Shown piece by piece: positions 999 through 23,406 of a stretch of 64,000 bases of DNA. Every line of letters begins with the position of its first letter. The first letter of the stretch is position 1. Made by a program: the position numbers and the translations under genes. Under the pieces are notes generated by a model that was given only the letters and a program-made list of their open reading frames with translations, ran no database searches and had not been told where the DNA came from. The DNA comes from Alphaproteobacteria bacterium (lineage in GTDB: Bacteria > Pseudomonadota > Alphaproteobacteria > TMED109), in the NCBI GenBank assembly GCA_022825235.1, contig JAJDYI010000030.1, positions 1 through 64,000 on the forward strand. Reading direction: 5' to 3'.

Positions 999-1176
999 GC
1001 ACAGTCGAATCTTTGGATCAATATCGTAACAAGACCTGCCTCGAAAACGTTGGGACACCAGCGTCGACATATGAACTTTTCTGTGTAGCGCAGAGCAATC
1101 TGGCCACGAACGGGGAAGCTGGATTCCCCTGGACCGCTGCGGAATGATCGCTGGAATCTGAACGACATTGACTTAT

Positions 1177-2152: not shown

Positions 2153-2556
2153 ACACAAAGGGTCAGTGTAATGTATCTGTTCTCGCTGCAGTGTTTTGCG
2201 AAGGGGTGAGAGTGGAAAGTAACGGAAAAGAGATTCTTATCGGTGTGTACAGCGGGACAATTAACGTCCCCCGGATTCCTGGGATTATAGCTCTGCATTG
2301 CTGGATAAACTTGAGTATTCAAGATCCGTCCTCGATCTCACTAAATTTCAGAATAACAGATCATAGAAATCAACAGGTTCACATATCCGAAATCCACACT
2401 GAAACGAAGGAAGGGAACAGCCACGGAAGCATTGTTTTGACCCCGATCAATTATGAGGTCAAAGATCCGGAGGGGTTTCTCCTCCTTGAATACAGCGAGC
2501 GCGAAGGAGAATGGAGGCACCTAGTTAAGAAGCACGTGAGGTATCAAAGTAACTGA
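2149..2556 (+). CDS. DUF6941-like protein, third gene of AT-rich cassette
   Basis: 135 aa, starting at an ATG that overlaps the upstream TGA (ATGA). The early pattern 'VFCEGVRVESNGKEILIGVY' followed by a beta-rich body resembles the DUF6941 family (small beta-sandwich proteins of unknown function with an N-terminal 'cd.vr.e.ngk..liGvy' signature). The assignment is from memory. No catalytic residues are evident. The protein looks soluble. As the last gene of the cassette it probably works with the HTH protein and the first gene, but no mechanism can be inferred. Confidence 0.55.
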   Translation: MNTKGQCNVSVLAAVFCEGVRVESNGKEILIGVYSGTINVPRIPGIIALHCWINLSIQDPSSISLNFRITDHRNQQVHISEIHTETKEGNSHGSIVLTPINYEVKDPEGFLLLEYSEREGEWRHLVKKHVRYQSN

Positions 2557-2654
2557 ACTCTTAGCCAGATGCATCGGCACCGTTTTGCGTCGTGGCGCGA
2601 AGCCAGCCGGGGTCGGATTCGCACGGGCACGTCTCCTGCTCAGAGGCTGGTCCG

Positions 2655-3638
2655 TCAACGGAGCCAATTGAGACAGCCGGCCGCCTCCAGCACCTGAGCG
2701 AGTTCGGCGTTCTCGCCGAGGCGGGCATACCTCTCGCGAAGGACGCGGAGCGAGCGGGCATGATAGCGCTGCGGCTTCTGGACCCAGCGGTCTCCGGAGA
2801 GATCCACCTCGAACTCCTCGGCTTCCTCGGCGATGGCCCGGGCATTGGCGTCGGACCAGGGGAGAAAGCGGCCTCCGACCTCTTCCGCCAGTAGCGGCAT
2901 CAGGGTCGGCTCCAGCGCGGGCCACGTCTCGAACGCACCATGCGATTTCGGGTCCTGCATCTCTCGGCACCATGCGAGCGTCCGGGGTGGGATTAGTCCG
3001 GCGCCAGTGGGATCGGTTGAAAGCTGCCAGACCTGAGCGCCAATGCCGAAATCGGCGAAGGCGGGCCGAGCACCGAACAGGTACCTCCGGCTTTCCAGGT
3101 GCGCCTCCAGCAGCTCCAGCATCCGGGCAAGCGATTGCTCGATGATCGGTGCCGTTTCCGGTGACGATCCCACGAACCAGACGCGGGGGACCATGCGTTC
3201 GCGCACGCCCCGGGCCTGCTCGGCCACGGCATCGTCGCTGGCGCCCGGGAGCATCGACCGGGCGATCCGATCGGCGGCCGACAGCTGGTCCGCCTCGTCG
3301 CGCCAGCGATAGTGGAACATGTGCTTGTTGCCCCACTCATCGCCGTACTCCTCGAGGAGGGCCGAGAGGAAGGCGAGCACGGGGTCGTCGGGCTGGATCG
3401 CGGGCTCGGGCACTTCCGCCTCGAACCGCTCGATGACGGGGGTCGAATCCTGGAGGCCCTCGCCCTCGGGCGTGACGACCAGCGGCACGAGCGGCAGCCG
3501 GGCATGGGCCTTGAACTCGGCCTCGTTGTCAGGCGTTCGCGTCAGCCACTCGTGCGCGATGCCCTTGTAGCGGAAATAGGCACGAACCTTCACGGAGTAC
3601 GGGGAGAGTTCCGAGCCAAAGATGCGATAGCGTGCCAC
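2655..3638 (-). CDS. Glutathione S-transferase family protein
   Basis: 327 aa from GTG 3638, chosen because GGAG lies 8 nt upstream and the frame then opens directly with the thioredoxin-fold strand ARYRIFGSELSPYSVKVR. The SPYS motif sits where GSTs carry the catalytic Ser/Cys, and residues 50-80 contain the GSH-binding element VPLVVTPEGEGLQDSTPVIE (cis-Pro and a DST in place of ESxAI). The remaining 240 residues form an extended all-alpha C-terminal domain, longer than in classical GSTs (about 220 aa total). Cytosolic. The substrate is unknown, and a structural rather than catalytic role is possible. It is transcribed towards the AT-rich cassette and not linked to a neighbour. Confidence 0.8.
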   Translation of the reverse strand: MARYRIFGSELSPYSVKVRAYFRYKGIAHEWLTRTPDNEAEFKAHARLPLVPLVVTPEGEGLQDSTPVIERFEAEVPEPAIQPDDPVLAFLSALLEEYGDEWGNKHMFHYRWRDEADQLSAADRIARSMLPGASDDAVAEQARGVRERMVPRVWFVGSSPETAPIIEQSLARMLELLEAHLESRRYLFGARPAFADFGIGAQVWQLSTDPTGAGLIPPRTLAWCREMQDPKSHGAFETWPALEPTLMPLLAEEVGGRFLPWSDANARAIAEEAEEFEVDLSGDRWVQKPQRYHARSLRVLRERYARLGENAELAQVLEAAGCLNWLR

Positions 3639-7398: not shown

Positions 7399-7878
7399 CG
7401 GCCACCGGCGATTGCCCGGAGCGGGTAGGTCGCTGGCCGGGTCCGGTGAAGCCTCGATCCCGCGGATAGCTGATGACGTGAGCAGGGTGCGGGGGCCCGG
7501 CGCCGCCGCGCCTCCCATCGTCGCGACGGGAGCGAGGGAGCCTTCGCGTGTGGCCTGCCCCCTGGGTGGGGCCGTCGTTGGGCTGAGAAACCGAGCGACT
7601 GGACCGCCTCCTACCGGGGCCACGTGCAGCCAGATCGTTGCTGCTGTTCGGATTGAGATCCGGCGGCCAGCACAGGCACAAGAGCGGCCGAGTGCCCGGA
7701 CATTGCAAGAGATTATCGGCACCAAAGGAAAACGGTATTCGCACTACTGCCTTGCCGCGACCATTTTGTACGTATCGGGTTCGGAGCTTAGCCGCGCTGA
7801 ACTGTAAGTCGCGAGGAACGAGGCGTGGTGCCGGGGAGCAAAGAGACCGGCAATCAGGAGCTGGCAGCCGTCAAGAGG
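7399..7878. other. Long intergenic stretch before the FtsK-like gene, no gene supported
   Basis: 480 bp. Several frames are open across it, including one continuous with the ATPase frame, but their translations are Arg/Gly/Ser-rich shadows without family resemblance. Probable junction between chromosomal backbone and an accessory segment. Confidence 0.4.
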
Positions 7879-8028
7879 ATGAGCGACAGGATTCTCGGAA
7901 AGCGACGGGGTCGCCACATTCTTACCGCAGCCGGGATTGCACTGGCCATCGCGGCTGTGACCGTGCTGGCGTCGACCACCGATCCGGAGCCGGCGCAGGC
8001 CTGCCTGTTGCCCGGCATCCCTTGCTAG
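7879..8028 (+). CDS. Small single-span membrane protein upstream of FtsK-like ATPase
   Basis: 49 aa from ATG 7879 (GTG 7825 would give 67 aa). A basic N-terminus (ILGKRRGRH) is followed by one hydrophobic helix of about 18 residues (ILTAAGIALAIAAVTVLA) and a short tail ending in two cysteines (CLLPGIPC). This suggests one membrane span or an uncleaved signal anchor with an exported Cys pair. Its TAG overlaps the GTG of the ATPase by one base (TAGTG), the sort of coupling seen for functional partners. No family recognised. The start is uncertain because AGAGG lies too close to ATG 7879. Confidence 0.4.
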   Translation: MSDRILGKRRGRHILTAAGIALAIAAVTVLASTTDPEPAQACLLPGIPC

Positions 8029-9056
8029 TGACAGATCCCTCCTCCCGGTCACTGGCAGTGCAGCTGGCGCGTGAGAACGCGCCGGCTGTACCCATGTTGC
8101 GGGACGCGCGGTTGAAGGGAAGGGGCGGGAGAGTGTCCACGACCGTGACTCTCCTCTCCGCTCGTGAGGGGAGGGAAACGGGGCAGGGGACTGGTGTTGA
8201 TCTCGTAGCTTCTCTCGACGTTGGCAGTCCTGCAGGCCTTGCCTTCATCCTCGGAGCTCGCGAAGACGACGACTCGCTCCTTTACTTGAATCTCGCTGGC
8301 AGTTTTGCTGACTACGAGGAGCATGGCCCCCACACGCTCATCGCGGGCGAGACAGGAAGCGGGAAGGGAGTCCTCACTCAAGGGCTCCTGTTGCAGATGA
8401 TCGCTTTCAACGATCCTGCTACCGCGGAGCTCATCCTCATCGATCCCAAGAAGGGTGTGGACTTCGGTTGGTTGAACGGGGCTCCGCATATGAAGCAGCC
8501 GATCGTGACCGAGGTTGATGCGGCCGCGAGTGTGTTCGCGAACCTCGTCGTGGAGATGGATGCTCGTTACCAACTCCTCGTCGACCACGGTGTACCTCAT
8601 ATCGGCGCGTACAATAGGAACGTTTCGCCGGAACAACGTCTGTCGCGCATCTTCCTCGTTCACGATGAGCTCGGCGCGTGGATGGCCCAGGAAAAGGAGT
8701 ATCAGGAGGTGGTGCTTTCTTCTGTCTCCGCGCTTGGCATGAAGGCTCGGGCGGCGGGCATCCACCTTGTTCTCATCACGCAGCGTGCCGACGCGGACGC
8801 GGTTCCGACACGACTGCGAGACAACATGGGCAACCGACTTTGCCTGAAGGTGCAGAATTCGACTGGTTCGCGCATGGTTCTCGACAGGCGCGGTGCGGAG
8901 AAGCTGCTTGGGAAAGGCCACCTCGCATGCATCCTTGCCAACCAAGCCACCCCACCAGGACAGGAGTTCTTCGTCGTCCAAGTTCCGTTCGCCGAATTCG
9001 ACGACTTGCAACGGTTGGCGGCCGCCGTGATGGCGTATTGGCGCGGACGCACTTGA
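8028..9056 (+). CDS. FtsK/SpoIIIE-type P-loop ATPase (short, solitary)
   Basis: 342 aa from GTG 8028. From residue about 85 the protein is an FtsK/SpoIIIE motor core. LIAGETGSGKG at 104-114 is Walker A. LILIDPKKGVDF matches the 'LILIDPK..e...y' strand, and RIFLVHDELG at 207-216 is Walker B with Asp213-Glu214. SALGMKARAAGIHLVLITQR is the sensor region, and RLRDNMGNRLCLKV..S...VLD..GAEKLLGKG is the standard C-terminal end. It lacks the membrane domain, linker and gamma domain of chromosomal FtsK (usually over 750 aa). It is therefore either a truncated gene or a short translocase from a conjugative, plasmid or defence module. No relaxase or type IV secretion genes lie nearby. Confidence 0.75.
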   Translation: MTDPSSRSLAVQLARENAPAVPMLRDARLKGRGGRVSTTVTLLSAREGRETGQGTGVDLVASLDVGSPAGLAFILGAREDDDSLLYLNLAGSFADYEEHGPHTLIAGETGSGKGVLTQGLLLQMIAFNDPATAELILIDPKKGVDFGWLNGAPHMKQPIVTEVDAAASVFANLVVEMDARYQLLVDHGVPHIGAYNRNVSPEQRLSRIFLVHDELGAWMAQEKEYQEVVLSSVSALGMKARAAGIHLVLITQRADADAVPTRLRDNMGNRLCLKVQNSTGSRMVLDRRGAEKLLGKGHLACILANQATPPGQEFFVVQVPFAEFDDLQRLAAAVMAYWRGRT

Positions 9057-9093
9057 TGGTGTTCGTGGCTACAGAAAAGTCCTGACAAATTTT

Positions 9094-9119
9094 GCAGATC
9101 TGTTCTTGACGCGATCTGC
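9094..9119. terminator. Hairpin downstream of the FtsK-like gene
   Basis: GCAGATC at 9094-9100 and GATCTGC at 9113-9119 form a perfect 7-bp stem with a 12-nt loop. It is flanked by TTTT on the left and AAAA on the right, 38 bp after the stop. It may act as a bidirectional terminator, though there is no downstream T-run for plus-strand transcripts. Confidence 0.35.
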
Positions 9120-9388
9120 GAAAACCGACCGAGCATGCAATGGATTGTCCCGGCGACTCGCCAAGAACGTGCTTCCCACCTGAACCGATTTTGCGATCCG
9201 AGGAGGGCGTCGCCGTGCGCTGGTGCGATCGCGGCGCTGCGGCGTTGGTGTGAGATTGCACGGGCCGGGGAGACCGGCGCAACCTCGGACAGAATTTTCT
9301 CTTGGCAGTCTGAGCCGCATCGGGTTCGCCGGAGACAAATCGGGCTGGGCCGGATCCACTATCACACGGTCGGGCTGTCACCGTATCG

Positions 9389-10474
9389 ATGGACTGGCTG
9401 GGGCAACGCCAGGCGCGGATCGAGACGGCGCGCGCCCGGCGGCACCTGCAGGCGGGGACGCTGGTGCTCTACGACGTCTCCTCGAGTTACCTCGAGGGGC
9501 GGTGCTGCCCGCTCGGGCGCCGCGGCCACTCGCGCGACGGGAAGAAGGGCAAGCTGCAGATCGTCTACGGGCTGCTGTGCAACGCTGAGGGGTGCCCGGT
9601 GGCGGTCGAGGTCTACGCCGGCAATACCGGCGACCCGGCCACGCACGCGGACCAGATCCGCAAGGTGCGCACCCGCTTCGGTCTTGAGCGCGTGGTGTTC
9701 GTCGGCGACCGGGGGATGCTGACGAGCGCGCGCATCAACGAGGAACTCCGCCCGGTCGAGGGACTGGACTGGGTCTCGGCGCTCCGCAGCAACGAGATCG
9801 CCCGTGCGCCAGCCGGCAGACTGGGGACTTTTACTTCGGCGCTATCGGGGAGTTTTCATCCGGCACTGACAATGGGCAAGCACTTCGGCTGGGAGTCTCG
9901 GACGGCAGCCGGCTGCGCTACTGGCGCGACACGGAACGGATCGACGCCGAGGCGCGCCTCGACGGCATCTACGTGATCCGCACCTCGGTGCCCGGGACGG
10001 TCCTCGACGCCGACGCCGCGGTCCGGGCCTACAAGGCGCTCGCCGCGGTCGAGCGCGCCTTCCGGTGCCTGAAGACCGTGGACCTCCACCTCCGCCCGAT
10101 CCACCACCGCCGGAGCGAACGGGTCCGCGCCCACGTCTTCCTGTGCATGCTCGCCTACTACGTCGAGTGGCACATGCGGCGCCTGGGCGCCGCTCCTGTT
10201 CGCCGAGGATGACCCCGCTGACGCCGCCCGGCGCCAGCGCTCCCCGGTCGCGAAGGCCACGCCCTCGGCTAGCTCCGACGCCAAGGCCGAGACCCGCCGC
10301 ACGCCGGAGGGCCTGCCCGTGCACCACTTCCGCGGACTGCTCGACCACCTCGCCACCCTGACCCGCAACACCGTGCAGGTGCACGGCGCCGAGCAGCCCT
10401 TCCAGCAGCTCACCGTACCCACCGACCTCCAGCGCCACGCCTTCGAACTCCTCGACGTCCGGATCGCCGTATAG
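9389..10474 (+). pseudogene. IS1634-type transposase remnant
   Basis: The visible pieces match an IS4/IS1634-type DDE transposase. VLYDVSSSYLEGR with the first catalytic Asp and GHSRDGKKGKLQIVYGLL are near 9460-9570. FVGDRGMLTSARI with the second Asp is near 9700. VERAFRCLKTVDLHLRPIHHR with the catalytic Glu and HVFLCMLAYYVEWHMRR follow at 10040-10180. The gene is broken three ways. About 120-170 N-terminal residues are missing. Roughly 100 residues in the middle are replaced by an IS21-like end (9821-9871), after which the frame changes. An extra G near 10186 shifts the frame again before the C-terminus, which ends in LLDVRIAV at 10474. It cannot make active transposase. Confidence 0.85.
9821..9871. 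mobile_element. Solo IS21-like terminus inside the transposase remnant
   Basis: CTGGGGACTTTTACTTCGG begins at 9821 and a second copy (TCGGGGAGTTTTCATCCGG) at 9845, 24 bp apart, ending in ACTGACA at 9871. Spacing and outer distance equal those of the terminus at 91-141, with about a quarter of the bases changed. It has the same orientation, so the element body should lie to the left, but transposase sequence is found there instead. Only this end remains. Confidence 0.6.
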
Positions 10475-10609
10475 TCAGAACGTGCACACCGCTTCTTCGG
10501 CTATCCTCCACGGATGCAGCCGCTTGCTGACTTCAAACCCCAGAACTTCGAGCTAGCGGGTCCAGGCTGCGTGCCAGCAGGCTCGTGTTCAGTTAATCTT
10601 GGCGCTAGA

Positions 10610-10656
10610 AGGGCACTCAGGGGAAGATTTGAACTATAACAGCCTTCAAGTGCCCT
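10610..10656. repeat. Inverted repeat 3' of the nitrilase-RT-primase operon
   Basis: AGGGCACT at 10610-10617 and AGTGCCCT at 10649-10656 are perfect 8-bp arms with a 31-nt loop. They lie 28 bp beyond the stop of the last gene of the operon. It could be a weak terminator or the end of a mobile segment; no T-run is obvious. Confidence 0.35.
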
Positions 10657-10683
10657 CACGATGAGTGCATTAATGAGTAGAAG

Positions 10684-11592
10684 CTATATCTTGACGACCC
10701 CACGATCAAGCGAAACGAGATTGGAGAAACCCGGTGGTAGGCTCTTGAACTGATCATTACTGCCGTTCTGTTGATGATGGAGAAGGCTTCTAAGTGGTAA
10801 TTCGATGAGTTGGGCGTTGGGCAGGTTCTGGCCTGAGTGCCGATAAACTGTGCGTTTGTAGGGTTTACGAAACGGGCTTACTGCATGGGAACCGCCGAAT
10901 TGCCCGCAATTGCATACGACTACATTACAGAATAGCATGCGACCGAGAGCTTCGGACAAATGGTCAAAAGAATTTGTGTCGCGGTTATAGGCGAGCACAA
11001 ACAAAGTTTGAATCCTGTTTCTATACATAACAATCCGATCCAGGTCCATGAAGTCATAACATAATGCAACAGCGAATTTTCCTAAGCACTCGCTTTCAAA
11101 TACCCAGACGGTGGGATTCGAGACAAAATTTACTCTCGATGCACTTATGCTGAGCAGTTTCCTTTTTTCGCCTGGTGCTGGATAGGTTTTACCGAGTCGT
11201 CGGATCTCAGTCCGAAGGGCTATTTTTTGTCCCCCTAGAATGCGGGGGACGATTACAACGGCCTCATTCGATACAGCTGGGTGCGGCTGGGCCGGTTCTA
11301 TTCGGTAGTCGAGGCCGGCAACAATTATGGCCTCTAAGTCTTCTGACGCACGTGCGACCTGCCTTTCGAATCCGATTGGAACTGACAGCTCAGGAAAAAG
11401 AATTATGTCCGGTTTACGGTCCAAGCCCTTTAAGGATGCGAGATAGTGTCGAATTTCCCTCTTCGCACGGCGCTCTTCATGGGAAGAGATTTGCACGCTT
11501 TGTTGCCAATTGCCTGATACATTATCAACCCATGCAGCATCGTCGTGAAGCGAAGTTTGGATGACGCCCACTCGCAACGTGTCATTCGTCAT
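10684..11592 (-). CDS. Nitrilase-superfamily protein of RT defence operon
   Basis: 302 aa. ATG 11592 is preferred over an in-frame ATG at 11610 because AAGGGG lies 6 nt upstream. The start overlaps the last 11 bases of the reverse transcriptase gene. It has a carbon-nitrogen hydrolase fold with the Glu-Lys-Cys triad plausibly intact: Glu68 in IILFPELS, Lys135 or Lys143 in GKTYPAPGEKRK, and Cys178 in ALCYDFMD. The family's CNCGQFGGS-like strand follows near 228. Nitrilase-fold domains are known partners of class 1 UG/Abi reverse transcriptases; in DRT type 1 (UG1) the domain is fused to the RT C-terminus. Here it is a separate gene. Its substrate is unknown. AT-rich and transcribed last in the operon. 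Confidence 0.85.
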   Translation of the reverse strand: MTNDTLRVGVIQTSLHDDAAWVDNVSGNWQQSVQISSHEERRAKREIRHYLASLKGLDRKPDIILFPELSVPIGFERQVARASEDLEAIIVAGLDYRIEPAQPHPAVSNEAVVIVPRILGGQKIALRTEIRRLGKTYPAPGEKRKLLSISASRVNFVSNPTVWVFESECLGKFAVALCYDFMDLDRIVMYRNRIQTLFVLAYNRDTNSFDHLSEALGRMLFCNVVVCNCGQFGGSHAVSPFRKPYKRTVYRHSGQNLPNAQLIELPLRSLLHHQQNGSNDQFKSLPPGFSNLVSLDRGVVKI

Positions 11593-14500
11593 CGGCGTCC
11601 CCTTCTTCATCTTCTCTAGTACCTGCCGCGAAGTCGGTCAGGCGAAATGGGATAAGCTGGCGAGGTTGGTTCATGGAAACGGCGAGTTGGTTTGCCACAA
11701 GGACCTGTTGCGCACTTGCAATTGCGTTTAGAAGTTCATTAGGTCCCATCAACAAGGGGGTATCAAAATCTGCGTCATTTGGCGCTTGCCCGTCAATCCA
11801 GCCAAAAAGGCTCGGATTTCGGGTGATTGACCGCGTCTCCGCTCGACGGGTACCTAGGCAGCCCTCGACAATTTGAAGGGTGAGTGAGGAGATCGCAAGC
11901 GATCGGATCCAACGTGTTTGGGGTAAAGGAAATACCTGTTCATTTCCGCGGATATTCCAGATCCTTGGCGCTTTGTGATTCAGTCGCAACTGATCAAGCA
12001 ATAGGCGCCCAACGCCCGTCAACCGCCGTTCCCATTCGTTCAATTTTCGTCCGCCTTGCGTATGGGCAAAATAGCGGTAGTCCTTAACAGAGGTTGCGGA
12101 AGGTCGAAGTGTGATTTGCGCGCTTGAATTCGGATTCGCAAAATGCCGCCATTCTTCCCAGCTTACTCTGGCCCGCTCACGATCGCTCGGAAACGCCGAT
12201 CTCCACTCATTTGGTACTAGGACATTGTTGGGGTGGAGAAGATCCAAGCGAGTTTGATGAACACTCAACTCATTCACAATCGGCGACACTAGCTGGCGCA
12301 CGATTTCTAGTGCGGTCCATTCACTGCGTCTGGGATCGAAGGGACTAAGCTCTTGAGATAGAAACCTAGTCCATTCTGTAAGCGTTATCCAGCCATCGTT
12401 TGGAGGGTGGAGCGATCTGGCGGCACGAGTAAACGCTTTCTTTTTGGATGCAAAAGCGGTGGCAACGCGTTCCTCGTTTCCGACGATCATTTCGCGTATC
12501 CAACCGGAATCGGTTTCCGGTAAAGGAGCGTTGGTGTCCAGCAGCCGGTGCCAGCCCCCCTCGGACAGGAACTCCGGGTAGCGACGCGAAGCTCTGATAT
12601 CGGTGACTCTTGGTGATGACAAGAGCAAACCGAACCGCTTCCAAGAAGCAGTCGGACGGTCATCAACGCTTAAGGCAGACTCGGTCAGGTGCGCCCAAAC
12701 ACCTGGCCGTAGGCCAGTTTCGCGCTCCCACGCCTCGGCGGAATCACTAAATGAGACGCTTACAAATTGGCTAGCTAGTCGTGCTAAGCGCTTCGCGAGG
12801 TCACCATTTGTGTGCGTGTGACGAACAACCTCCGCAATTGCTAGCAATGCAACACCAAACTCAGTTCGGCTGAGGTTATGAAACCAAGCTAAGTTCTCCT
12901 GTCGATCTAGAAACGCTCCGGGATCGATACGGCAGACATCTTCAAGATGACGCAGCACGGCTTCCCGATCCGACCGAAGCGCATTTTCCGAAGTCCAAGT
13001 TCTGGTCGCAAGGAGCACACCTCGAGCAAGGACTTGGAGTGATAAACCCCCATAATAGTCGGCCCATACAGTGTAGCCTCTCGCCCGGGTCTCTTTTATC
13101 CATTCTGCGATTTCACTTAGTCCTCCATAGCCAGTTATTCGACAATATTCGTGGATTCTGTAAAATAAACGCGGTTTTCCTGGGTATTCGCGAGATGCCT
13201 GAAGCAATAAGCTGAAGCAGTGGCGTAACTGCCGATCTTCGTCACGTTTCTGTGCCTCTTCCAATAACGCCAGCTTCTTGTTTGTCTCTTCGATAGCAGA
13301 CATGTGTTCGGCAGTATCTTTTGGCGAGGTAGTTTCAGGGTCGCGAGCCCGTGCCTTGAGATCTTGCAGAGATCGTGCGGTCTCTACGAGACCGTCAGCC
13401 TCTCGAACGAGGATGGGCGCTAATGTGGCAATTCGCCCTGCCGCAAATGCAGCGCGTGTATCAGGCCGGATTTCATGCTCGGGGATATTTGCCAATAACA
13501 GCCATTCTAGGAGCTTTAGACGCTCCTCTAAGTCCTCATCATCCAACGTGTTAACATTTGCTGCGGCTATTGCTGATATTTGCCCAAGCGTCTTAGTGAG
13601 AAGTGCGGTAGGATTTGCGCCGTCAAGCGCTGTGTGCTGAATGGCTGCCTCTCTGGCCTTTCTTTCGCGCTCCTCTTTTTTTTGTGACGACCGGGCCGTT
13701 GTGACCGCAGAGTCCGCAGAGCGCATGCTGACCCAATCGCCCAGGCTAACGGGATCATACTTGTCTGGATTTACATCGACGCCTGTATCACAATCTTGCA
13801 GCAGGTTACGATAGAACTCAAGCCATCCACAGAGTTCATCGAAGTCGTAAGAAAGAACTAAGTGATCATCGACGAACCGAAAGTGCGCGAGAGAACGCTT
13901 CCGAATAACTCGCTGGTTGACCGCTTCATCAACTCGAAGCATGGCAGCATTTGCCAGGAAACCTGCCACAAACAATCCAGTGGGAATGCCTCCTACTAGC
14001 CGTCGGCCAAAACTGGGTTCTACATTTTTTAAAGTATTTTGCGGCATTTTAGTGTCATCGAGACGGAATCTCAGCATTCCAGAAAGTAATGTTCGCAGCC
14101 GATCGTCGCTGCCGACTGCAGTGGTCAGCCCGTCAAAGACTGCATTTGTCTTTAGGTTTGGATAAAACTGTTTCAGATCAAACGAAGCATGATAGATTCT
14201 GGTTGTTGGCGTTTGTTCGGGCTTGGGCAACCAGAACCCGTCGTATAAGTAACGCAAGCCTTCTTTCTTTGCTGAAATTGCCGCTAACCTATCGGCTTGG
14301 TCTAGATGTTCTAGTTCGGGCGGCAAGGCTCGTGCCATCGCTCGGGCGGTCAATGCCACATGTCGTCGAAACAATGGCCAACTATGTTGAAACTTGCGAT
14401 AGAGGTGGCCGCTCGCATGCCTGTATGGCCCGATCTCTAAGACCGATTTTCGGTCTTCTCCGTGCTCATACCAAGCGGGACGGTATATACGATTACCGTA

Positions 14501-14839
14501 GCTCCACGGAGGCATCTGCTGGTCCAATTCGGGCCCAAGCGCATTAGCGACAGCGATCCATGCAACTTGATCCTCAACTGCAACATGATAGTATTGGCGG
14601 TCTACCGCAACGTCGTTTTCGATCTTTTTGGGGCGTGGTAAAGGACGCAGTTTTTTCGTATGCCAAACGCCTTTTTCGAACCGCTTGTGAATAGCAATTA
14701 AACGCTCTTCGAGATTAATTTCAAATTCAGAGAGTTCGGCACTATTGACGTAGCCATCAAGCGTAGAATAGATCTTCTTTGCCTTTTTCCAGGCATAGTT
14801 AAGGTTTTCTGGCACCAAGAGGCGATCATGGATACTCAT
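11582..14839 (-). CDS. UG/Abi-type reverse transcriptase (DRT-like, UG1/UG5-like class)
   Basis: 1085 aa. The RT core occupies residues about 60-345. Motif A is SFDLKQFYPNL with Asp221, motif B is GGIPTGLFVAGFLANA at 283-298, and motif C is FRFVDDHLVLSY with Asp324/Asp325, so the catalytic triad is complete. RPLPRPKK near 65-72 and PWSYGNRIYRPAW at 111-123 are early palm/finger elements seen in UG/Abi enzymes. There is no maturase X or thumb domain and no HNH. The remaining 740 residues are helix-rich, with a coiled-coil-like stretch at about 505-545, consistent with the alpha-helical repeat domain of the UG/Abi group. These RTs give phage resistance by making DNA, often without a conventional template. 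It starts 2 nt after the primase-like gene stop and overlaps the nitrilase gene. AT-rich against its surroundings, so likely acquired. Confidence 0.88.
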   Translation of the reverse strand: MSIHDRLLVPENLNYAWKKAKKIYSTLDGYVNSAELSEFEINLEERLIAIHKRFEKGVWHTKKLRPLPRPKKIENDVAVDRQYYHVAVEDQVAWIAVANALGPELDQQMPPWSYGNRIYRPAWYEHGEDRKSVLEIGPYRHASGHLYRKFQHSWPLFRRHVALTARAMARALPPELEHLDQADRLAAISAKKEGLRYLYDGFWLPKPEQTPTTRIYHASFDLKQFYPNLKTNAVFDGLTTAVGSDDRLRTLLSGMLRFRLDDTKMPQNTLKNVEPSFGRRLVGGIPTGLFVAGFLANAAMLRVDEAVNQRVIRKRSLAHFRFVDDHLVLSYDFDELCGWLEFYRNLLQDCDTGVDVNPDKYDPVSLGDWVSMRSADSAVTTARSSQKKEERERKAREAAIQHTALDGANPTALLTKTLGQISAIAAANVNTLDDEDLEERLKLLEWLLLANIPEHEIRPDTRAAFAAGRIATLAPILVREADGLVETARSLQDLKARARDPETTSPKDTAEHMSAIEETNKKLALLEEAQKRDEDRQLRHCFSLLLQASREYPGKPRLFYRIHEYCRITGYGGLSEIAEWIKETRARGYTVWADYYGGLSLQVLARGVLLATRTWTSENALRSDREAVLRHLEDVCRIDPGAFLDRQENLAWFHNLSRTEFGVALLAIAEVVRHTHTNGDLAKRLARLASQFVSVSFSDSAEAWERETGLRPGVWAHLTESALSVDDRPTASWKRFGLLLSSPRVTDIRASRRYPEFLSEGGWHRLLDTNAPLPETDSGWIREMIVGNEERVATAFASKKKAFTRAARSLHPPNDGWITLTEWTRFLSQELSPFDPRRSEWTALEIVRQLVSPIVNELSVHQTRLDLLHPNNVLVPNEWRSAFPSDRERARVSWEEWRHFANPNSSAQITLRPSATSVKDYRYFAHTQGGRKLNEWERRLTGVGRLLLDQLRLNHKAPRIWNIRGNEQVFPLPQTRWIRSLAISSLTLQIVEGCLGTRRAETRSITRNPSLFGWIDGQAPNDADFDTPLLMGPNELLNAIASAQQVLVANQLAVSMNQPRQLIPFRLTDFAAGTREDEEGDADDE

Positions 14840-14841
14840 GC

Positions 14842-15894
14842 TTATGCTTTCATTATCATCAAATATTCGTTAACATCGTTTATGTTGGGATTTGGGCGGC
14901 GCTTGCGGGTCGACGGAATACCGAACATCCGCAATTCATTCTGAAGGTCACCAGCACGTGCTTCTCCTTGAGGGTCCCAATCCAGGAGAATTACAACCTG
15001 CTTGTCATCTAGTCGTCGAATCTGCTCTTGCTTTAACTGCATATTGATACCCAACAACCCAATGGCGTTATACCCAAGTTCAACTGCCGATAGCGTATCC
15101 ATTGCGCCCTCGCATATGGCAAAGGGTGCGTTGCTAGTTTTGAGCAGTGCATTGAAATTGTATATGCGCCGCTCACGGTGATTGAGGTTGCGCCATGTTC
15201 TGTGAGTCTGAGAGTCGTTTGGCGACCGAGATTGAAAGTACATAATTTGATCATATTCGAGAAAAGGAAACAAGAGGCTGTCCGGAGCGAAGAGAGATCG
15301 CCAATTGTTGTTGGTTGACAATTTCGTGAGCAATCCTCCGCGCTCAATTCGCTGGTAGCCATAGTTCTGGATCAGATCTCCGAGGAAGTGTACACGGTTC
15401 GGAAGCTGCCCGATGCGGAATTTCGAAATGACTTCCTTCGAGAGACCTCGCCGTAGTAAGTAATCCATTCCACTTGCCTGCAAGGGGGCGTGCCGGAGAA
15501 AGGCTTCGTATAGTTCGCAATCTGGCGGAGATTCCACGGCTTCGTCTTTGGCAGCTGAAGCGGGGTTGGTGGACGGACGAGAAGGTGTAAGTGCTCGGGT
15601 CTGGCGCAATGACGTTGCGCCTAGTCCCCCACGAGCCACGAGCCAGCGTTTCGCCTCCAGAAAGTCGGTGCCATGATAGGTCTTTACGAAGTCAATTGGT
15701 CCGCCTGATCGGCGGCATCCGTAGCAAACCCAACGAATACCCGACTTTCGAACCTCAAAGGATGGTGTCCTGTCATCGTGATCAGGGAAAGGACATCGAA
15801 TCATCCCATGTAGCGGAAGCCTCAGCCCCAATAGATTTCCAACGGCTTGAAGGGGCATCCGATTGAGAGTTGCTGTGTCTTCTCGAAACCCCAT
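14842..15894 (-). CDS. CHC2 zinc-finger / TOPRIM primase-like protein
   Basis: 350 aa and DnaG-like in layout. A zinc finger sits at residues 34-60 (Cys34, His39, Cys57, Cys60, in CPFPDHDDRTPSFEV..WVCYGC), the CHC2 fold that recognises DNA in primases. A linker follows, then a helical region resembling the DnaG N-terminal RNA-polymerase domain (YLLRRGLSKEVISKFRIG, LLFPFLEYDQIMYFQSRS). A TOPRIM domain comes last, with Glu262 (ICEGAMD) and Asp305/Asp307 (LLDWDPQG) as the metal site and NINDVNEYL as the primase end motif. It is much shorter than housekeeping DnaG (about 600 aa) and lacks the helicase-binding C-terminus. First gene of the operon, 2 nt before the RT. An attractive inference is that it makes primers for, or hands substrates to, the RT. 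Confidence 0.85.
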   Translation of the reverse strand: MGFREDTATLNRMPLQAVGNLLGLRLPLHGMIRCPFPDHDDRTPSFEVRKSGIRWVCYGCRRSGGPIDFVKTYHGTDFLEAKRWLVARGGLGATSLRQTRALTPSRPSTNPASAAKDEAVESPPDCELYEAFLRHAPLQASGMDYLLRRGLSKEVISKFRIGQLPNRVHFLGDLIQNYGYQRIERGGLLTKLSTNNNWRSLFAPDSLLFPFLEYDQIMYFQSRSPNDSQTHRTWRNLNHRERRIYNFNALLKTSNAPFAICEGAMDTLSAVELGYNAIGLLGINMQLKQEQIRRLDDKQVVILLDWDPQGEARAGDLQNELRMFGIPSTRKRRPNPNINDVNEYLMIMKA

Positions 15895-15904
15895 TGTTTC
15901 AGTT

Positions 15905-15928
15905 ACCTGCCATGGCAGTCGACAGGTT
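15905..15928. promoter_or_regulatory. Nested palindrome just upstream of the primase-like gene
   Basis: CTGCCATGGCAG at 15907-15918 is a perfect 12-bp palindrome, inside a wider pair ACCTG/CAGGT (15905-15909 and 15924-15928). It begins 11 bp before the start codon of the defence operon, in the 5' leader, so it could be an operator or a translational hairpin. Confidence 0.4.
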
Positions 15929-16298
15929 AGCCCGCATGAACAGGTCTGAACGCCACCCGCCTATGATCGGAGCAAACTACAGAAGTAATTGTCCTGATGA
16001 CACAGATTTCAAATACTATCCATTCACAAGGCCGGCTGGAACAGGTGCGCTCCTCGGGGGAAAACGATAGCGGCTGGTAGCCAAAACGGACCGGAGACGG
16101 AAGTCCGACGCCATGCTTCTCCCCTATATGCCGCGCGAAGGCTTCGGAGGGCTTCAGACGACGCTCGGTCATGGTGTGCTTCTCGTGGATCAGGCGGCGG
16201 ACCAACTCTTCCAACGACATGCCGATCTGGCGCGCTTTGCGTCGGAGCCGGGACTTGTCGCCGGGATCGATGTCGCGGACGGTGATGCTGGTACTCAT
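15927..16298 (-). pseudogene. FitA-like ribbon-helix-helix antitoxin, 3' end altered, toxin missing
   Basis: From ATG 16298 the protein reads as a plasmid-stability/FitA-type antitoxin. An RHH domain is seen in SITVRDIDPGDKSRLRRKAR and MSLEELVRRLI, then the typical tail (FARHIGEKHGVGLP.., FGYQPLSFSPEE) that blocks a VapC/PIN toxin. About residue 84 the family normally stops and a PIN toxin gene follows. Here the frame runs on into unrelated AT-rich sequence to 15927 and no toxin is present. The change occurs near 16030-16050, exactly where the RT island begins, so the island or a deletion has probably removed the toxin. An extended orphan antitoxin may still be made. Confidence 0.65.
15984..16012 (-). 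promoter_or_regulatory. Candidate promoter of the primase-RT-nitrilase operon
   Basis: Read on the minus strand: TTGAAA (16012-16007), 17-nt spacer, ATTACT (15989-15984). The -35 is good and the -10 poor. It lies 90 bp upstream of the primase-like start and in AT-rich DNA. By-eye call only. Confidence 0.25.
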
Positions 16299-16537
16299 GA
16301 CTGCGGGTTCAGTTCGGACGACATTCTGCTCACGGAACCATTGTGCGAGCAAGTTGCGACAGCATGAAACCTAGGCCAAGAGTCGGCGACTGCCGTACTT
16401 GACCGTGGGCGTGGTGCCCACGCAGTGTAAGGGCGGCTCAGACAATCGCTCCGGGACCGCGACTGCTTCCCGTATTCCAGCCGGGTGACGGGCGCCCTAC
16501 CTGTGGAATCCGCCACCTAGATCAAGGAGCTCCTGCT

Positions 16538-17677
16538 TTGGACCGCAGAACATTTCTTGCCGGTGCCGCCGGCGTCGGTGCTTCGGTCGCGTTGGCCGCT
16601 TGCGGCGAAAACGACAACCAGGACCAACAGCAGACTTCGGGTGCCGGTACGCCCGAGCACCCTGGCCAGGCGCCCGGCATCAGTCGGCGACTGCGTGAAT
16701 GGAACCTCGTCACGACCTGGCCCAAGAACTTCCCCGGGCTGGGAACCGGCGCACAGCGCCTCGCCGACCAGATCACGACGGCGTCCGAAGGCCGGCTGGC
16801 CGTCAAGCTGTACGCCGCCGGCGAGTTCGTGCCCGCGTTCGAGAGTTTCGATGCGGTCCGGGAAGGGAAGGCGCAGATGTTCCATGCGGCGCCGAGTTAC
16901 TGGACCAACAAGCATCCATCCATCCCGTTCTTCGGCGCCGTGCCCGGCGGCCTGGTCCCGCAGGAGCACAACGCGTGGGTGTACCACGGCGGCGGCCAGG
17001 AGCTATGGGACGAGCTCTACGGCGAATTCGGTCTCAAGGCTCTCATCGCCGGCAACACCGGGACCCAGATGGGAGGCTGGTTCCAGAAGGAGATCAACGC
17101 CCTCTCGGACTTCCAGGGCCTCAAGATGCGCATTCCCGGCCTCGGGGCGGAAGTCATCAACCGGCTCGGCGGCACAGCGGTCAACCTGCCCGGCGGCGAG
17201 ATCATGCCCGCCCTCCAGTCCCGGGTCATCGATGCCACCGAATGGGTCGGGCCCTGGAACGACCTGGCGTTCGGCTTCTACAAGATCACGAAGAACTATT
17301 ACGGCCCTGGCTTCCATGAGCCCAGTGCCGCCATCGAGCTCTCGGTGAACAAGGAGGCCTGGGACGGGCTCGAGGCCGATCTGCAGACGATCGTGGAGAA
17401 TGCCGCCGCGGCCACCAACGTCCGCATGCTCGCCGAATTCACTGCCGCCAACGTTGAATCGCAGCGCGTGCTGGTCGAGCAGCACGGTGTCCGGATACGC
17501 CCGTTTCCGGCGGAGGTGTTCAGGGAGATGCTGCGCCATAGCGATGATGTCGTGCGGGCCACGGCAGAGGAAGACGACCTGGCGCGCCGCATCTTCGAGA
17601 GCTGGGAGCGTTTCCGGAACGAGGCGCGGGCGCGCAACCCGTACGCGGAACAGGGCTACCTGCAGCTCCGAGGCTGA
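16538..17677 (+). CDS. TRAP transporter solute-binding protein (DctP family), Tat lipoprotein
   Basis: 379 aa from TTG 16538, supported by AAGGAG 9 nt upstream. The N-terminus DRRTFLAGAAG is a twin-arginine signal, and LAAC at 19-22 is a lipobox, so export by Tat and lipid anchoring at Cys22 are likely. The mature part has the DctP-type fold. The family's anchor Arg region is seen in LKMRIPGLGAEVINRLGG, and the substrate-site run is seen in ALQSRVIDATEWVGPWNDLAFGFYK. The latter sequence type is common in members for 2-oxo acids and related monocarboxylates. The membrane subunits (DctQ/DctM) are not in the vicinity, so it must work with components encoded elsewhere or be an orphan. Confidence 0.88.
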   Translation: MDRRTFLAGAAGVGASVALAACGENDNQDQQQTSGAGTPEHPGQAPGISRRLREWNLVTTWPKNFPGLGTGAQRLADQITTASEGRLAVKLYAAGEFVPAFESFDAVREGKAQMFHAAPSYWTNKHPSIPFFGAVPGGLVPQEHNAWVYHGGGQELWDELYGEFGLKALIAGNTGTQMGGWFQKEINALSDFQGLKMRIPGLGAEVINRLGGTAVNLPGGEIMPALQSRVIDATEWVGPWNDLAFGFYKITKNYYGPGFHEPSAAIELSVNKEAWDGLEADLQTIVENAAAATNVRMLAEFTAANVESQRVLVEQHGVRIRPFPAEVFREMLRHSDDVVRATAEEDDLARRIFESWERFRNEARARNPYAEQGYLQLRG

Positions 17678-19210: not shown

Positions 19211-19380
19211 TCCGCCAGCAGGCGGCGCGCCCACACCGCCTCGATGACGGCGTCCAGATCGCCCCGGCCGTGGGCGTCGTCGAACCGCTCCACGAACAGC
19301 GGGCCGATTAGGCGCAGGAATGTCCCGGAAAAGAGCTGCTGCGCCAGCTCTGCCTTGGCGACGAAGGCGGTGCGAGACAT
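19205..19380 (-). pseudogene. N-terminal fragment of an unrecognised protein
   Basis: From ATG 19380 a coding-like stretch of 59 residues begins MSRTAFVAKAELAQQLFSG and ends ARRLLADYP. It looks like two amphipathic helices of a soluble protein and has GC-rich third positions like the host genes. At 19205 it runs into the truncated antitoxin, so the remainder of the gene is gone. Family not recognised. Confidence 0.4.
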
Positions 19381-19512
19381 CCCGCTCGAACGGTCCGACT
19401 GGCCGGCCGGGTTCGCGCGATGTCTTGCCGACGCGCAGGCCGTGGGGTTCGTACGAGCCGCCGACAAGCGCCTTAAAACGTGTCGTGCTCCGTGCAGGCT
19501 TCCACGACAATA

Positions 19513-19553
19513 TTGACGTGCAACAATACTGTCGTATAGTATGTTCTACGACA
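19513..19553 (+). promoter_or_regulatory. Promoter with inverted-repeat operator for the ATPase pair
   Basis: TTGACG (19513-19518), 18-nt spacer, TAGTAT (19537-19542). A perfect inverted repeat, TGTCGTA (19530-19536) and TACGACA (19547-19553), straddles the -10 box. A third half site, CACGACA, lies at 19503-19509. Binding there would block polymerase, as in autoregulated TA or defence operons. It lies 25 bp before the first ATPase start. Confidence 0.55.
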
Positions 19554-19577
19554 AATCTGATTTACAACCGAGTCGAC

Positions 19578-20813
19578 ATGGAAACTGAAACCACGCCGGA
19601 ATTCTACATCGGCACTCCCGTCGAACCTATCGACCTGCGCTTCCGCGGGGCGTTCGTGGCAGAGCTGAGGCAAACCTTGCGCAACGGCCACGTGGTGCTC
19701 ACAGCGCCTCGACGAACCGGCAAGACCAGTGTCATGAACTATTTGCGCGACCATCCCGAGAACGAATTCAGGGTGGTGTCGATCAACGTGCAGGATCTGA
19801 CTCACCCGGCCGACTTCTTCCAGGTGCTGCTCGACGCATTCCACGATGCGCATCCGGAGTTCCTTCGCGACCGGCTCGCCGCAGGGTGGGGACTCCTCAG
19901 CGACGTGCTCGGAAAGGTCGAATCGATCGGGGCGGGCGGCTTCAAGCTCGCACTTCGCGGAAGCGATCCCGACTGGCGCGAGAACTGGCGCAGGCATGGC
20001 GACACGTTTCTCGCCCGGGCTCGCGCTACCGGCGTAAAGTTTCTATTCATCATCGACGAATTCCCCGACATGCTGCTCAACCTGTCCCGGAAAGATGTAG
20101 GGCTGCTGCGCGAGTTCCTCGCCTGGTTTCGCACCCAGCGTCAGAATCCTCCCCCGACCCGGGACTCGATCCGCTGGCTGGTCGGCGGCTCGGTCAACCT
20201 GACCGGCACGCTCGATGCGCTCGGAATGGTGGACCTCGTCAACGACCTCGAAGACGTGTCCCTGCCTCCGCTCACCGATGAGGACATCGAGACGTTCGTC
20301 GCGGACATGCTGGGCGGGCGAGGAGTCCCGTTCGAGGGTGACGTTCCGCGGCAGCTCATCGCTCGCCTGGGCCGCCCCATTCCGTTCTTCATGCAGATTG
20401 CGACTCAGAACCTCTACCGGTTGTGGAGGCGCGAGCAGCGCACAATCTCCTTGACGGATGTCGATGCCGTCTTCGACGAGATGATCGTCGGTTCCGCGGC
20501 CCGCACGCAGTTGCAGCACTACCACTCGAGGATCCGGCAATACTACGCAGAACCTAGGCGATCAATGGCCCACGCCTTGCTGGGCCAGATCAGCATGAGT
20601 TCATCGGGCCTAACGCGTGCAACCCTGCTGCAGGAGACGGAACGAGTACTGGCGGGACTTGGTGCCACGCGCCCGGCGCACGAGCGCCGGCAGTTATTCA
20701 ACCAGCTCATGTTTGACCTTGAGAACGACTTTTACGTCGTGGAGGTCAGGGGAGGGAACTATGACTTCGCGAGCGGGGTGCTGAAGTCGTGGTGGAGGAA
20801 ATACCATGCCTGA
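19578..20813 (+). CDS. AAA/ORC-like P-loop ATPase, first of a pair
   Basis: 411 aa from ATG 19578. It has an archaeal-type AAA ATPase (STAND/ORC-like) architecture. YIGTPVEPIDLRFRG precedes the P-loop at 43-50 (APRRTGKT). Walker B is KFLFIIDEFPDM near residue 160, and WLVGGSVNL is the sensor-1 strand. A helical lid is seen around LPPLTDEDIETFVADML, and the C-terminal helical part probably includes a winged helix (SSSGLTRATLLQETERVL). Cytosolic. The stop overlaps the start of the next gene by 8 nt. The pair probably forms one NTP-dependent complex; such pairs occur in defence or regulatory islands, but I know no specific named system. Regulation is likely through the inverted repeat over its promoter. 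Confidence 0.78.
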   Translation: METETTPEFYIGTPVEPIDLRFRGAFVAELRQTLRNGHVVLTAPRRTGKTSVMNYLRDHPENEFRVVSINVQDLTHPADFFQVLLDAFHDAHPEFLRDRLAAGWGLLSDVLGKVESIGAGGFKLALRGSDPDWRENWRRHGDTFLARARATGVKFLFIIDEFPDMLLNLSRKDVGLLREFLAWFRTQRQNPPPTRDSIRWLVGGSVNLTGTLDALGMVDLVNDLEDVSLPPLTDEDIETFVADMLGGRGVPFEGDVPRQLIARLGRPIPFFMQIATQNLYRLWRREQRTISLTDVDAVFDEMIVGSAARTQLQHYHSRIRQYYAEPRRSMAHALLGQISMSSSGLTRATLLQETERVLAGLGATRPAHERRQLFNQLMFDLENDFYVVEVRGGNYDFASGVLKSWWRKYHA

Positions 20814-23406
20814 AGCGGCCGTCCCCTCGAACATCGGCCTCTACCGGTCGGGAGTGACCAGCCCGGAGCGCCTGCGCCACACTACCGTCGCGCGTGGACA
20901 CGTCCTCGACAACACCGTCGCGTCCCTGCGCGGGTCGGTGCGCCGAAAGTCGAAGAACCACCTCCTCTTCATTGGGCCGCGTGGCATCGGCAAGACCCAC
21001 CTGCTCTCATGCGTCGAAGACATCGTCCGGTCCGACAAGGCCCTCGGCGAAAAGATTGTGGTCGCCCGGTTCCCGGAGGAAGCGAACCGGACCCTTTCTT
21101 TCGCCGACTTCCTCATTGGACTCTGCGGGATACTGAGCGATGTCCTCGAAGACGAGCCGTGCTGGGCGAAACTCCTCGCTGAAGTACAGGCCGAGGACGA
21201 CGACGCGAGGGTGGCTGACACGCTGGTGCCCGCAATCCGGCAAGAGAACCGCCGACACGGCCGCACCCTGCTCGTCATGCTCGAGAACCTGGGCGAGGTC
21301 CTTTCGAGGCAGATCCGCGACGCAAACGACGTCGCCGCATTGCGCAAGTTCCTCATGGCTGACAACGGCTGCTTGCTGGTGGCCACCGCTCCAATGCACT
21401 TCGACGGCATCACCGACATCCGACAGCCGTTTTACGACTTCTTCGATATCCAGATGTTGGAGAGTCTGAGCTTCGAGGAAACGGTCGAACTCATCCGCCG
21501 CAACCTCGAGTGGGAAAAACGTACGGAACTGCTCGCGACCCTGGAACGCATGAGCCCGCGACTGGAGGCCCTCTATCGCATGACGGGGGGGAATCCACGG
21601 CTGACAATGATGCTCTACGAGCTAATTGCCCATGAATCCATTACCGGGGTGCAGGAGCAATTCCACGTGCTGCTCGACCGGGTCTCGCCGTTCTATCAGA
21701 GCCGGCTGAAGGACCTGCCGCCCGGCCAACGCGCGTTGCTCGAGAGTCTTGCGAGCATGCGCGACGAGGAGAAGACGCCCGCCGCAATTTCCGCACGCAT
21801 GCGCATGAGCCAGCAGGAGACCTCGTCACTGCTAAAGCGCCTGTCCGATGCCCACTACCTGCGTTCCGACAGGCACCCGCGGGACCGGCGCTCGCGTCTC
21901 TACGTGATTCGAGAGGGATTCTTCGACATCTGGCTCGCAATGAACATCTCCCGCAGTGCGCGTAGGCGACTTCCTTTCCTCCTCGAATTTTTCGAGCTCT
22001 TTTACCCGAGCGTCGAGCAACGGGAGAAAAAGCGCCGCGAGTTGCGCGAGAAGCTCCTCGAAGAAGGGAGCGCTGACGCGAAACAGGCCCTTGACTATCT
22101 GAGCGAAGTCGGCGACGAGGGGGAACGGGCGACTGCGAAGTTCGATATAGCAAGGACTTTCGCCCGCATCGGAGCAACCGAGCAGGTGACGAGCTACGTG
22201 CTCGAAGCCGCGCCCCTCGCCGGAGACGGCGTGAGCCAGTCGATCGCTCGCATCATTTCGAGTGCGCCACCCGCTCCCGACTATCTCTCAGAGATTGAGA
22301 AAATGATCGCGGCTTGGGAAGAGCACCGGAGCGGTGATCTCGAAGCGTTCGCCTCCCGCCTCGCGGAGATGGGAAAGGGGTTGACCCTGCAGACGTTTTC
22401 GGAGACCCGACTCTCGTTTCTCAAGGATGCGCTGGAGAGCGTGGGGGATGCCGAGGAACGGATCATGCAGCGCCTGCAAATTGCGACGGTGTTGATGCAA
22501 CTCGCACGCTGGAATGAATGCGAAGAGCAGCGGCGTCAAGCGCTCATCGAGGCGAAGTCACTCGCCGATGCGAAACTTGTTGCACGAGCGTCGAATGATT
22601 TGGGAGGACTGCTCCGGCATACCAGCCGGCACGGCGAGGCCGAGCCATTGATGCGACAGGCGCTGGAAATCGCCGAGGCCGCTTTCGGCAAGCATGACCT
22701 TTTCACGGCGACTTGCTTGAACAACTTGGCGATGCTGCTACGCGATACCAACCGCATTGACGAAGCCGAGCCGATGTTGCGGCGGGCGTTAGGGACGGTC
22801 GAAGCCGCTTTCGGCAAACAGCACCCTAAAGTTGCGGCCTTCTTGAACAACTTGGCGTTTCTGCTGCAGGACACGAAACGTAATGAGGAAGCCGAGCCGA
22901 AGTTACGGCAAGCGCTGGAAATCGACGAGGTTGTCTCCGGTGAACAGCACCCCAATGTGGCGATTTGCTTGAACAACTTGGCGACGCTGCTGATCGACAC
23001 GAACCGCGCCGAGGAAGCCGAGCCGATGTTGCGGCGGGCATTGAAAATTGACGAGGCTGCTTTCGGTGAACAGCACCCCAATATGGCGGATTGCTTGAGC
23101 AACTTGGCGACGCTGCTGATCGACACGAACCGCGCCGAGGAAGCCGAGCCGATGTTGCGGCGGGCGTTGAAAATTGACGAGGCTGCTTTCGGTGAACAGC
23201 ACCCCAATGTGGCGATACGGTTGAACAACTTGGCGGCGCTGCAGAGCAACACAAACCGCGCCGAGGAAGCCGAGCCGATATTGCGGCGAGCTTTGGACAT
23301 TCTCAATTCGTTTCATCGGCGGACCAAACACGTGCACCCGAGTTTGGAACTGGTGACAGCGAACTACCAAGCCCTCCAGCGGGCCAAGGCTGACGGTCCG
23401 GACTGA
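20806..23406 (+). CDS. AAA ATPase with winged helix and C-terminal TPR array
   Basis: 866 aa. The P-loop is GPRGIGKT at 57-64. The Walker B strand reads TLLVMLENLG, with Glu-Asn instead of the usual Asp-Asp/Glu, so hydrolysis may be weak. ALYRMTGGNPRLTMMLYEL is a STAND-like sensor/lid segment. A winged-helix domain lies at about 300-370 (QRALLESLASMRDEEKTP, TSSLLKRLSDAHYLR). A charged coiled-coil-prone linker follows, then six kinesin-light-chain-like TPRs from about residue 612. Ligand-sensing TPRs on a STAND ATPase suggest a switch protein: target binding on the TPRs activates the ATPase. Whether it works in antiviral sensing, transcription or TA control is not shown. Translation is coupled to the upstream ATPase. 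Confidence 0.8.
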   Translation: MPEAAVPSNIGLYRSGVTSPERLRHTTVARGHVLDNTVASLRGSVRRKSKNHLLFIGPRGIGKTHLLSCVEDIVRSDKALGEKIVVARFPEEANRTLSFADFLIGLCGILSDVLEDEPCWAKLLAEVQAEDDDARVADTLVPAIRQENRRHGRTLLVMLENLGEVLSRQIRDANDVAALRKFLMADNGCLLVATAPMHFDGITDIRQPFYDFFDIQMLESLSFEETVELIRRNLEWEKRTELLATLERMSPRLEALYRMTGGNPRLTMMLYELIAHESITGVQEQFHVLLDRVSPFYQSRLKDLPPGQRALLESLASMRDEEKTPAAISARMRMSQQETSSLLKRLSDAHYLRSDRHPRDRRSRLYVIREGFFDIWLAMNISRSARRRLPFLLEFFELFYPSVEQREKKRRELREKLLEEGSADAKQALDYLSEVGDEGERATAKFDIARTFARIGATEQVTSYVLEAAPLAGDGVSQSIARIISSAPPAPDYLSEIEKMIAAWEEHRSGDLEAFASRLAEMGKGLTLQTFSETRLSFLKDALESVGDAEERIMQRLQIATVLMQLARWNECEEQRRQALIEAKSLADAKLVARASNDLGGLLRHTSRHGEAEPLMRQALEIAEAAFGKHDLFTATCLNNLAMLLRDTNRIDEAEPMLRRALGTVEAAFGKQHPKVAAFLNNLAFLLQDTKRNEEAEPKLRQALEIDEVVSGEQHPNVAICLNNLATLLIDTNRAEEAEPMLRRALKIDEAAFGEQHPNMADCLSNLATLLIDTNRAEEAEPMLRRALKIDEAAFGEQHPNVAIRLNNLAALQSNTNRAEEAEPILRRALDILNSFHRRTKHVHPSLELVTANYQALQRAKADGPD
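22639..23394 (+). repeat. Six tandem 126-bp units coding 42-aa TPRs
   Basis: Units start at 22639, 22765, 22891, 23017, 23143 and 23269 (each at codons for Ala-Glu-Pro), an exact 126-bp period. Units 4 and 5 are nearly identical, which points to recent duplication. The first and last are diverged, as is usual for capping repeats. Confidence 0.9.

Follow-up and report, generated by a model that had tools for sequence, protein, structure and literature searches.

The stretch of DNA considered here (the window) consists of positions 1 to 64,000 of contig JAJDYI010000030.1, from an alphaproteobacterium of the TMED109 lineage (assembly GCA_022825235.1). Between positions 10684 and 15894 it carries three intact, closely packed genes on the minus strand, which encode, in order, a DnaG-like primase, a reverse transcriptase (RT) and a stand-alone nitrilase-fold protein (Table 1). 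A sequence-only reading of the window had described the three genes, the 2-nt gap and 11-nt overlap between them and their catalytic motifs, and all of this was confirmed by checks of the open reading frames (ORFs) and motifs. The same reading proposed an RT-based defense operon, and matches to models for the UG6 type of defense-associated reverse transcriptase (DRT) support that proposal. It also called the system undescribed, which is incorrect, as PADLOC-DB v2 (2023) already contains RT_UG6, RTasDnaG-like, RTasNitrilase and RTasSbcB models, all classed under DRT.

The RT scores 1154 bits with RT_UG6, the next-best model being Drt1a at 67 bits, and the primase and nitrilase score 341 bits with RTasDnaG-like and 380 bits with RTasNitrilase, respectively. 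By these profile scores it is close to certain that the operon belongs to UG6. The dedicated models show that the RT family and its association with a DnaG-like primase had been noticed by 2023. A survey of RTs also listed a UG6 RT with a nitrilase neighbor (BBI33370.1) and named dnaG among the occasional neighbors of RT genes in general (PMC8934634). UG6 is an already catalogued DRT type, apparently without experimental study, and the window holds a real, intact and conserved copy of it.

Table 1. Features of the UG6 operon and its surroundings (window coordinates, or residues for protein domains)
Feature	Position	Strand	Remarks
DnaG-like primase	15894-14842	(-)	350 aa; ORF confirmed
Primase domains			CHC2 zinc ribbon C34/H39/C57/C60; DNAG_N basic motifs R223, R235, R243; TOPRIM E262, D266, D305xD307, D340
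UG6 reverse transcriptase	14839-11582	(-)	1085 aa; ORF confirmed
RT domain	residues about 13-367 of 1085		Motifs D221 and FVDD 322-325 present; followed by a long region predicted to be mostly helical
Stand-alone nitrilase-fold protein	11592-10684	(-)	302 aa; ORF confirmed
Variable chromosomal segment holding the operon	7399-16738		Flanks syntenic in sibling genomes, which hold other genes or little DNA there
IS1634-family transposase remnant, in two frames	9389-10212	(+)	Downstream of the operon; mobile context, outside the system
ORF with FitA/VapB-like ribbon-helix-helix antitoxin start	15927-16352	(-)	Upstream of the operon, outside the system; Pfam FitA-like_RHH

Exact peptide seeds, run against 84,980 species genomes, uncovered two relatives, one in an alphaproteobacterial metagenome-assembled genome (MAG; locus L001, 67% RT identity) and one in a Maricaulis MAG (locus L002, 45% RT identity). 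Their RTs score 1172 and 1047 bits with RT_UG6, and both loci carry primase, RT and nitrilase genes in the window order, with overlapping genes. The primase gene, whose membership in the operon had been proposed from the window sequence, thus precedes the RT gene in both relatives (2/2; three loci in all). The junction between these two genes is a 4-nt ATGA overlap in the relatives and a 2-nt gap in the window, whereas the 11-nt overlap between the RT stop and the nitrilase start at 11592 has the identical length in all three. A longer nitrilase reading frame could begin at 11610, and the start at 11592 is preferred because the 11-nt overlap recurs in both relatives. The window and L001 resemble each other in DNA (69.5%) from exactly the primase ATG to 35 bases before the nitrilase stop; no DNA is common to the two outside the trio, and the flanks are unrelated. 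Approximate ratios of nonsynonymous to synonymous substitution (dN/dS) against L001 are 0.14 for the primase, 0.10 for the RT and 0.05 for the nitrilase, rough values since dS is near saturation. Judged by these ratios the operon genes are under purifying selection, which argues that the operon is not a chance reading frame. The catalytic motifs are whole in all three genes and do not vary when the three genomes are aligned.

The recurrence of the trio and of its gene order, the overlapping genes, the unrelated flanks and the existence of RT-associated PADLOC models for both partners together argue that primase, RT and nitrilase form a real unit, and the idea that they are accidental neighbors in a transposon-rich patch, to which the transposase remnant and broken antitoxin on either side lend some color, can be given hardly any credence. 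Accidental grouping was accordingly rejected, the conservation of the trio as a unit in genomes with RT identities of 67% and 45% being the refuting evidence. The RT found no match in the sampled phages, plasmids and viral contigs, and a search of several hundred Pseudomonadota genomes (phylum, class and order samples) with the UG6 model yielded no other full-length copy, only weak matches that look like other RTs, so that UG6 is rare there.

The Maricaulis locus is a four-gene form of the operon. Its additional gene (L002:4518-5924) starts 1.4 kb upstream of the primase gene, ends 39 nt before it, and encodes a 468-aa exonuclease I (ExoI) homolog that scores 448 bits with RTasSbcB. No SbcB-type exonuclease gene is present at the window and L001 loci, and the RTasSbcB model has no match in the whole genome from which the window comes. 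In the DRT9 system, the host ExoI restrains the defense by degrading its poly-dA product (PMC12483538), and by analogy the ExoI bundled with the Maricaulis operon suggests a single-stranded DNA (ssDNA) product that needs control. A pairing of this general kind was seen elsewhere, on the Leptospira interrogans plasmid pl_URK_3b, where (L040:4268-8499) an RT-nitrilase fusion gene has a gene for a DEDDh 3'-5' exonuclease 11 nt behind it, so that here too a nitrilase RT and a 3'-5' exonuclease are neighbors. Downstream of the operon at L001 lies a gene for a 1209-aa NACHT-domain protein (L001:13475-17104) that is weakly similar to an antiphage NACHT model.

The nitrilase has a catalytic tetrad of E68, K135, E142 (the second Glu) and C178, and when it was searched against PDB sequences the sole match was DRT1 (9yfd), with an E value of 6e-15. 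Profile comparison with hhalign aligned the nitrilase with the C-terminus of four DRT1-like proteins (E 1.8e-23), and RT residues 13-367 with the same four-protein alignment (E 2.9e-18). A link between the nitrilase and DRT1 had been suggested from the window sequence, and it is borne out by these matches, according to which the nitrilase and the N-terminal third of the RT are homologous to DRT1. An alignment of nine proteins shows no variation at the tetrad residues E68, K135, E142 and C178, nor at K283 and G288, which bound a C-terminal lid motif, K283-x-x-P-[P/A]-G288, common to the nitrilase and DRT1. By PDB alignment the lid stretch corresponds to DRT1 residues 1219-1224; where DRT1 has A1223, the window and L001 have Pro and L002 has Ala. 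Defense by DRT1 requires lid residues K1219 and A1223 as well as the catalytic C1116, and the K1219A and A1223F substitutions each abolish it (PMC13275509). The identification of the nitrilase as the probable effector is well supported by these alignments.

The 2026 study of the DRT1 mechanism assigns the nitrilase RTs, DRT1 and DRT5, to class 3, which corrects the class 1 label that the sequence-only reading had attached to such enzymes. It also reports that DRT1 and DRT5 synthesize DNA without a template and with protein priming, that the priming residue of DRT1, Ser402, is not conserved in other class 3 RTs, and that DRT1 needs a phage ssDNA helicase for its activity (PMC13275509). A plasmid search with the window nitrilase returned distant proteins only, most of them fused RT-nitrilases. 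DRT1-like RT-nitrilase genes, each with a small hypothetical gene, possibly drt1b, closely 3' of it, are plasmid-borne in Vibrio (L047:1366-5735), Pseudoalteromonas (L048:1513-5639) and Photobacterium (L049:1453-5599), and the Vibrio gene adjoins a Qat anti-phage system.

The third protein has every hallmark of a DnaG-type primase, namely the CHC2 zinc ribbon, the basic RNA polymerase motifs and the TOPRIM acidic residues, and these zinc, basic and acidic residues are all invariant in the three genomes. It matches Zn_ribbon_DnaG, DNAG_N and Toprim_2 of Pfam above cut-off, as well as the solved DnaG structures 5guj and 2au3. The hallmarks of a housekeeping DnaG, a full core with a C-terminal DnaB-interaction domain and a single essential copy, are not found: the protein ends just past TOPRIM, the DnaB-binding domain is absent, the match to the DnaG core model TIGR01391 reaches only position 326 of 414, and the host's own DnaG is encoded on contig 12, with 25% identity to the operon primase. 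A plasmid search with the primase found distant primases only, and the top matches (Candidatus Manganitrophus and Leptospira) have no adjoining RT; a viral-contig search gave three partial primase matches.

The chromosomal setting was also consistent with a defense system. The three operon genes have GC contents of 0.49-0.51, and their GC at third codon positions is 0.49-0.52 as against 0.66-0.85 for neighboring genes. Both flanking fragments noticed previously are real: the NCBIfam model transpos_IS1634 matches the two pieces of the transposase remnant (profile positions 105-245 and 363-428 of 483), and part of the antitoxin ORF (16050-16330) is 84% identical to DNA at the matching place in a sibling genome, G002. 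The flanks of the variable segment (window 7398 and 16739) are separated by about 12.3 kb in G002, and in another sibling, G005, about 2.7 kb lies between the counterparts of window 7386 and 17738. The counterpart spot in G002 (L079:461-12292) is occupied by a type I restriction-modification system (HsdR, HsdS, HsdM) together with the two-gene PADLOC candidate PDC-M65A/B, and UG6 was found in none of six same-genus genomes (0/6). This comparison supports acquisition of the operon at a defense hotspot of the genus, and the position would in turn support, indirectly, a role in defense. Three further features of the window may be recorded. The variable segment also contains a fragment of an FtsK/SpoIIIE-type ATPase (7638-9056), perhaps from an older mobile element; a second low-GC patch (1001-3000; 0.52-0.54) holds three ORFs of 135-185 aa without a Pfam or PADLOC match; and at 19320-23406 an AAA ATPase gene overlaps a gene for a winged-helix and TPR ATPase (STAND-like), with no match to a PADLOC system.

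The favored way to bring these observations together is to regard the operon as a complete UG6 DRT that causes abortive infection in the manner of DRT1, but with the RT and nitrilase as two proteins and with a dedicated primase, a reading to which we assign a probability of roughly 0.6. UG6 identity, catalytic residues, conservation of the trio, homology to DRT1 and location at a hotspot can all be read from sequence. In the model, the RT would make DNA without an RNA template, as related nitrilase RTs do, and this DNA, together with the helical region of the RT, would assemble and hold the nitrilase in a regulated oligomer, as in DRT1. Phage replication would disturb the state of the oligomer, and the nitrilase would then attack an essential small molecule, leading to abortive infection. 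DNA synthesis by the UG6 RT is supported by its intact motifs and by family precedent. An ssDNA product would fit because of the RTasSbcB exonuclease in the Maricaulis operon and the control of DRT9 DNA by host ExoI. The least certain step is that of the primase, which might lay short RNAs on ssDNA. If this were phage replication DNA, RT synthesis would be tied to infection; if it were the product of the RT itself, that product would become double-stranded.

Several points count against the DRT1-like model. The alignment of RT profiles stops at residue 367, no counterpart of Ser402 was identified in the UG6 RT, and hhalign detected no homology to DRT1 beyond that residue, which leaves a shared helical assembly domain unproven. 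RT residues about 410-1057 are predicted to be mostly helical, but from a poor-quality model: AlphaFold2 predictions from three-sequence alignments reached pLDDT scores of 40 for the RT and 54 for the primase, too poor to test for such a domain. Only three UG6 loci could be compared directly, and no experimental work on any UG6 system was found in the literature searched.

Within this model, one can tentatively propose that the DnaG-type primase of UG6 supplies the RNA primers from which its DNA synthesis begins, on phage replication DNA or on the RT product, that priming serves as the infection sensor, and that the resulting DNA acts as the switch for a separate nitrilase toxin; the literature searched contained no characterized DRT primed by a TOPRIM primase, and this proposal would more probably fail than hold in full. 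A rather unlikely variant, a little behind it, is that the RT by itself synthesizes random DNA from a protein primer, as DRT1 does, with the primase furnishing a primer for the second strand so that the product becomes double-stranded. DRT7, which combines an RT with a primase-polymerase, is reported to make duplex-like DNA (PMC13213688), DRT3 makes double-stranded DNA with two RTs, and the catalytic residues for both steps are all present in the UG6 operon; however, DRT1 DNA is not used as a template, and an ExoI homolog, normally ssDNA-specific, fits a single-stranded product better. It is more doubtful still that the primase acts as an additional effector or sensor, which binds or primes phage ssDNA so that the primer or a triphosphorylated RNA (pppRNA) triggers an RT-nitrilase complex. 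An intact CHC2 ribbon and TOPRIM core without the DnaB-binding part would mean that the primase is not tied to the host replisome, and the helicase dependence of DRT1 makes sensing of phage replication plausible for the family (PMC13275509), but the PADLOC profile for UG29, discussed below, suggests a fusion of DnaG with an RT and DRT7 has a different primase-polymerase fused to its RT (PMC13213688), and both cases favor a primase that takes part with the RT in making DNA.

A different view altogether would make the operon a mobile element or a repair module, with group II-like or primase-replicon genes, rather than a defense system. RT and primase domains are also found in mobile elements, and the RT scores weakly with a group II intron RT model, but scans with family and RNA models found no maturase domain or intron RNA at the operon, and both the lack of RT matches in the plasmid, phage and viral collections and the UG6 match at a defense hotspot make this view very improbable.

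UG6 is catalogued yet mechanistically blank in the literature searched, and the presence of a DnaG-type primase beside an RT raises the question of how DNA synthesis starts in this branch, since priming is on protein in DRT1, DRT5 and AbiK. An intact operon, two relatives and named catalytic residues make this question testable, and the primase is the part of the operon most worth an experiment. As it shares the lid motif, UG6 is also a natural system in which to ask whether the nitrilase switch of DRT1 works in trans.

Among known systems, the ncRNA-dependent class 2 DRTs (DRT2, DRT9 and DRT10) differ in having a conserved noncoding RNA (ncRNA) beside the RT, whereas the three UG6 loci show no conserved flanking DNA and no Rfam match. 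DRT7 has an AEP/PrimPol-type primase, which is not related to DnaG. DRT7 (UG10) nevertheless resembles UG6 in that an RT works with a primase activity, and no nitrilase is named for it in PMC13213688. The RT_UG29 profile of PADLOC (2280 positions) has a DnaG domain in roughly the first 400 positions, which is related to the operon primase (58-73 bits), while its RT region lies near 720-790; it differs in being a fusion, and is known here from the profile rather than from a real locus, a search for UG29 having returned housekeeping DnaG matches and no fused RT. A fused DnaG-RT thus seems to exist, which suggests either that DnaG-type primases have repeatedly become joined to RTs or that UG29 is a relative in which the two are fused. 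The RT_UG5-nitrilase, which we take to be of DRT5 type, shares the nitrilase family and tetrad, but is one fused chain in the examples fetched, with no primase neighbor there. DRT1 (UG1; PDB 9YFD) has a homologous RT domain and nitrilase, with the tetrad conserved and the C-terminal lid motif largely so; it differs in carrying RT and nitrilase in one polypeptide rather than two separate genes, and the UG6 operon adds the primase gene. Closest of all are the UG6 DRTs of PADLOC-DB v2, from which the window operon differs in nothing categorical, lacking only the adjacent SbcB-type exonuclease of the Maricaulis MAG, and with which it shares three dedicated-model matches of 341-1154 bits and a gene order and overlaps common to two other UG6 loci.

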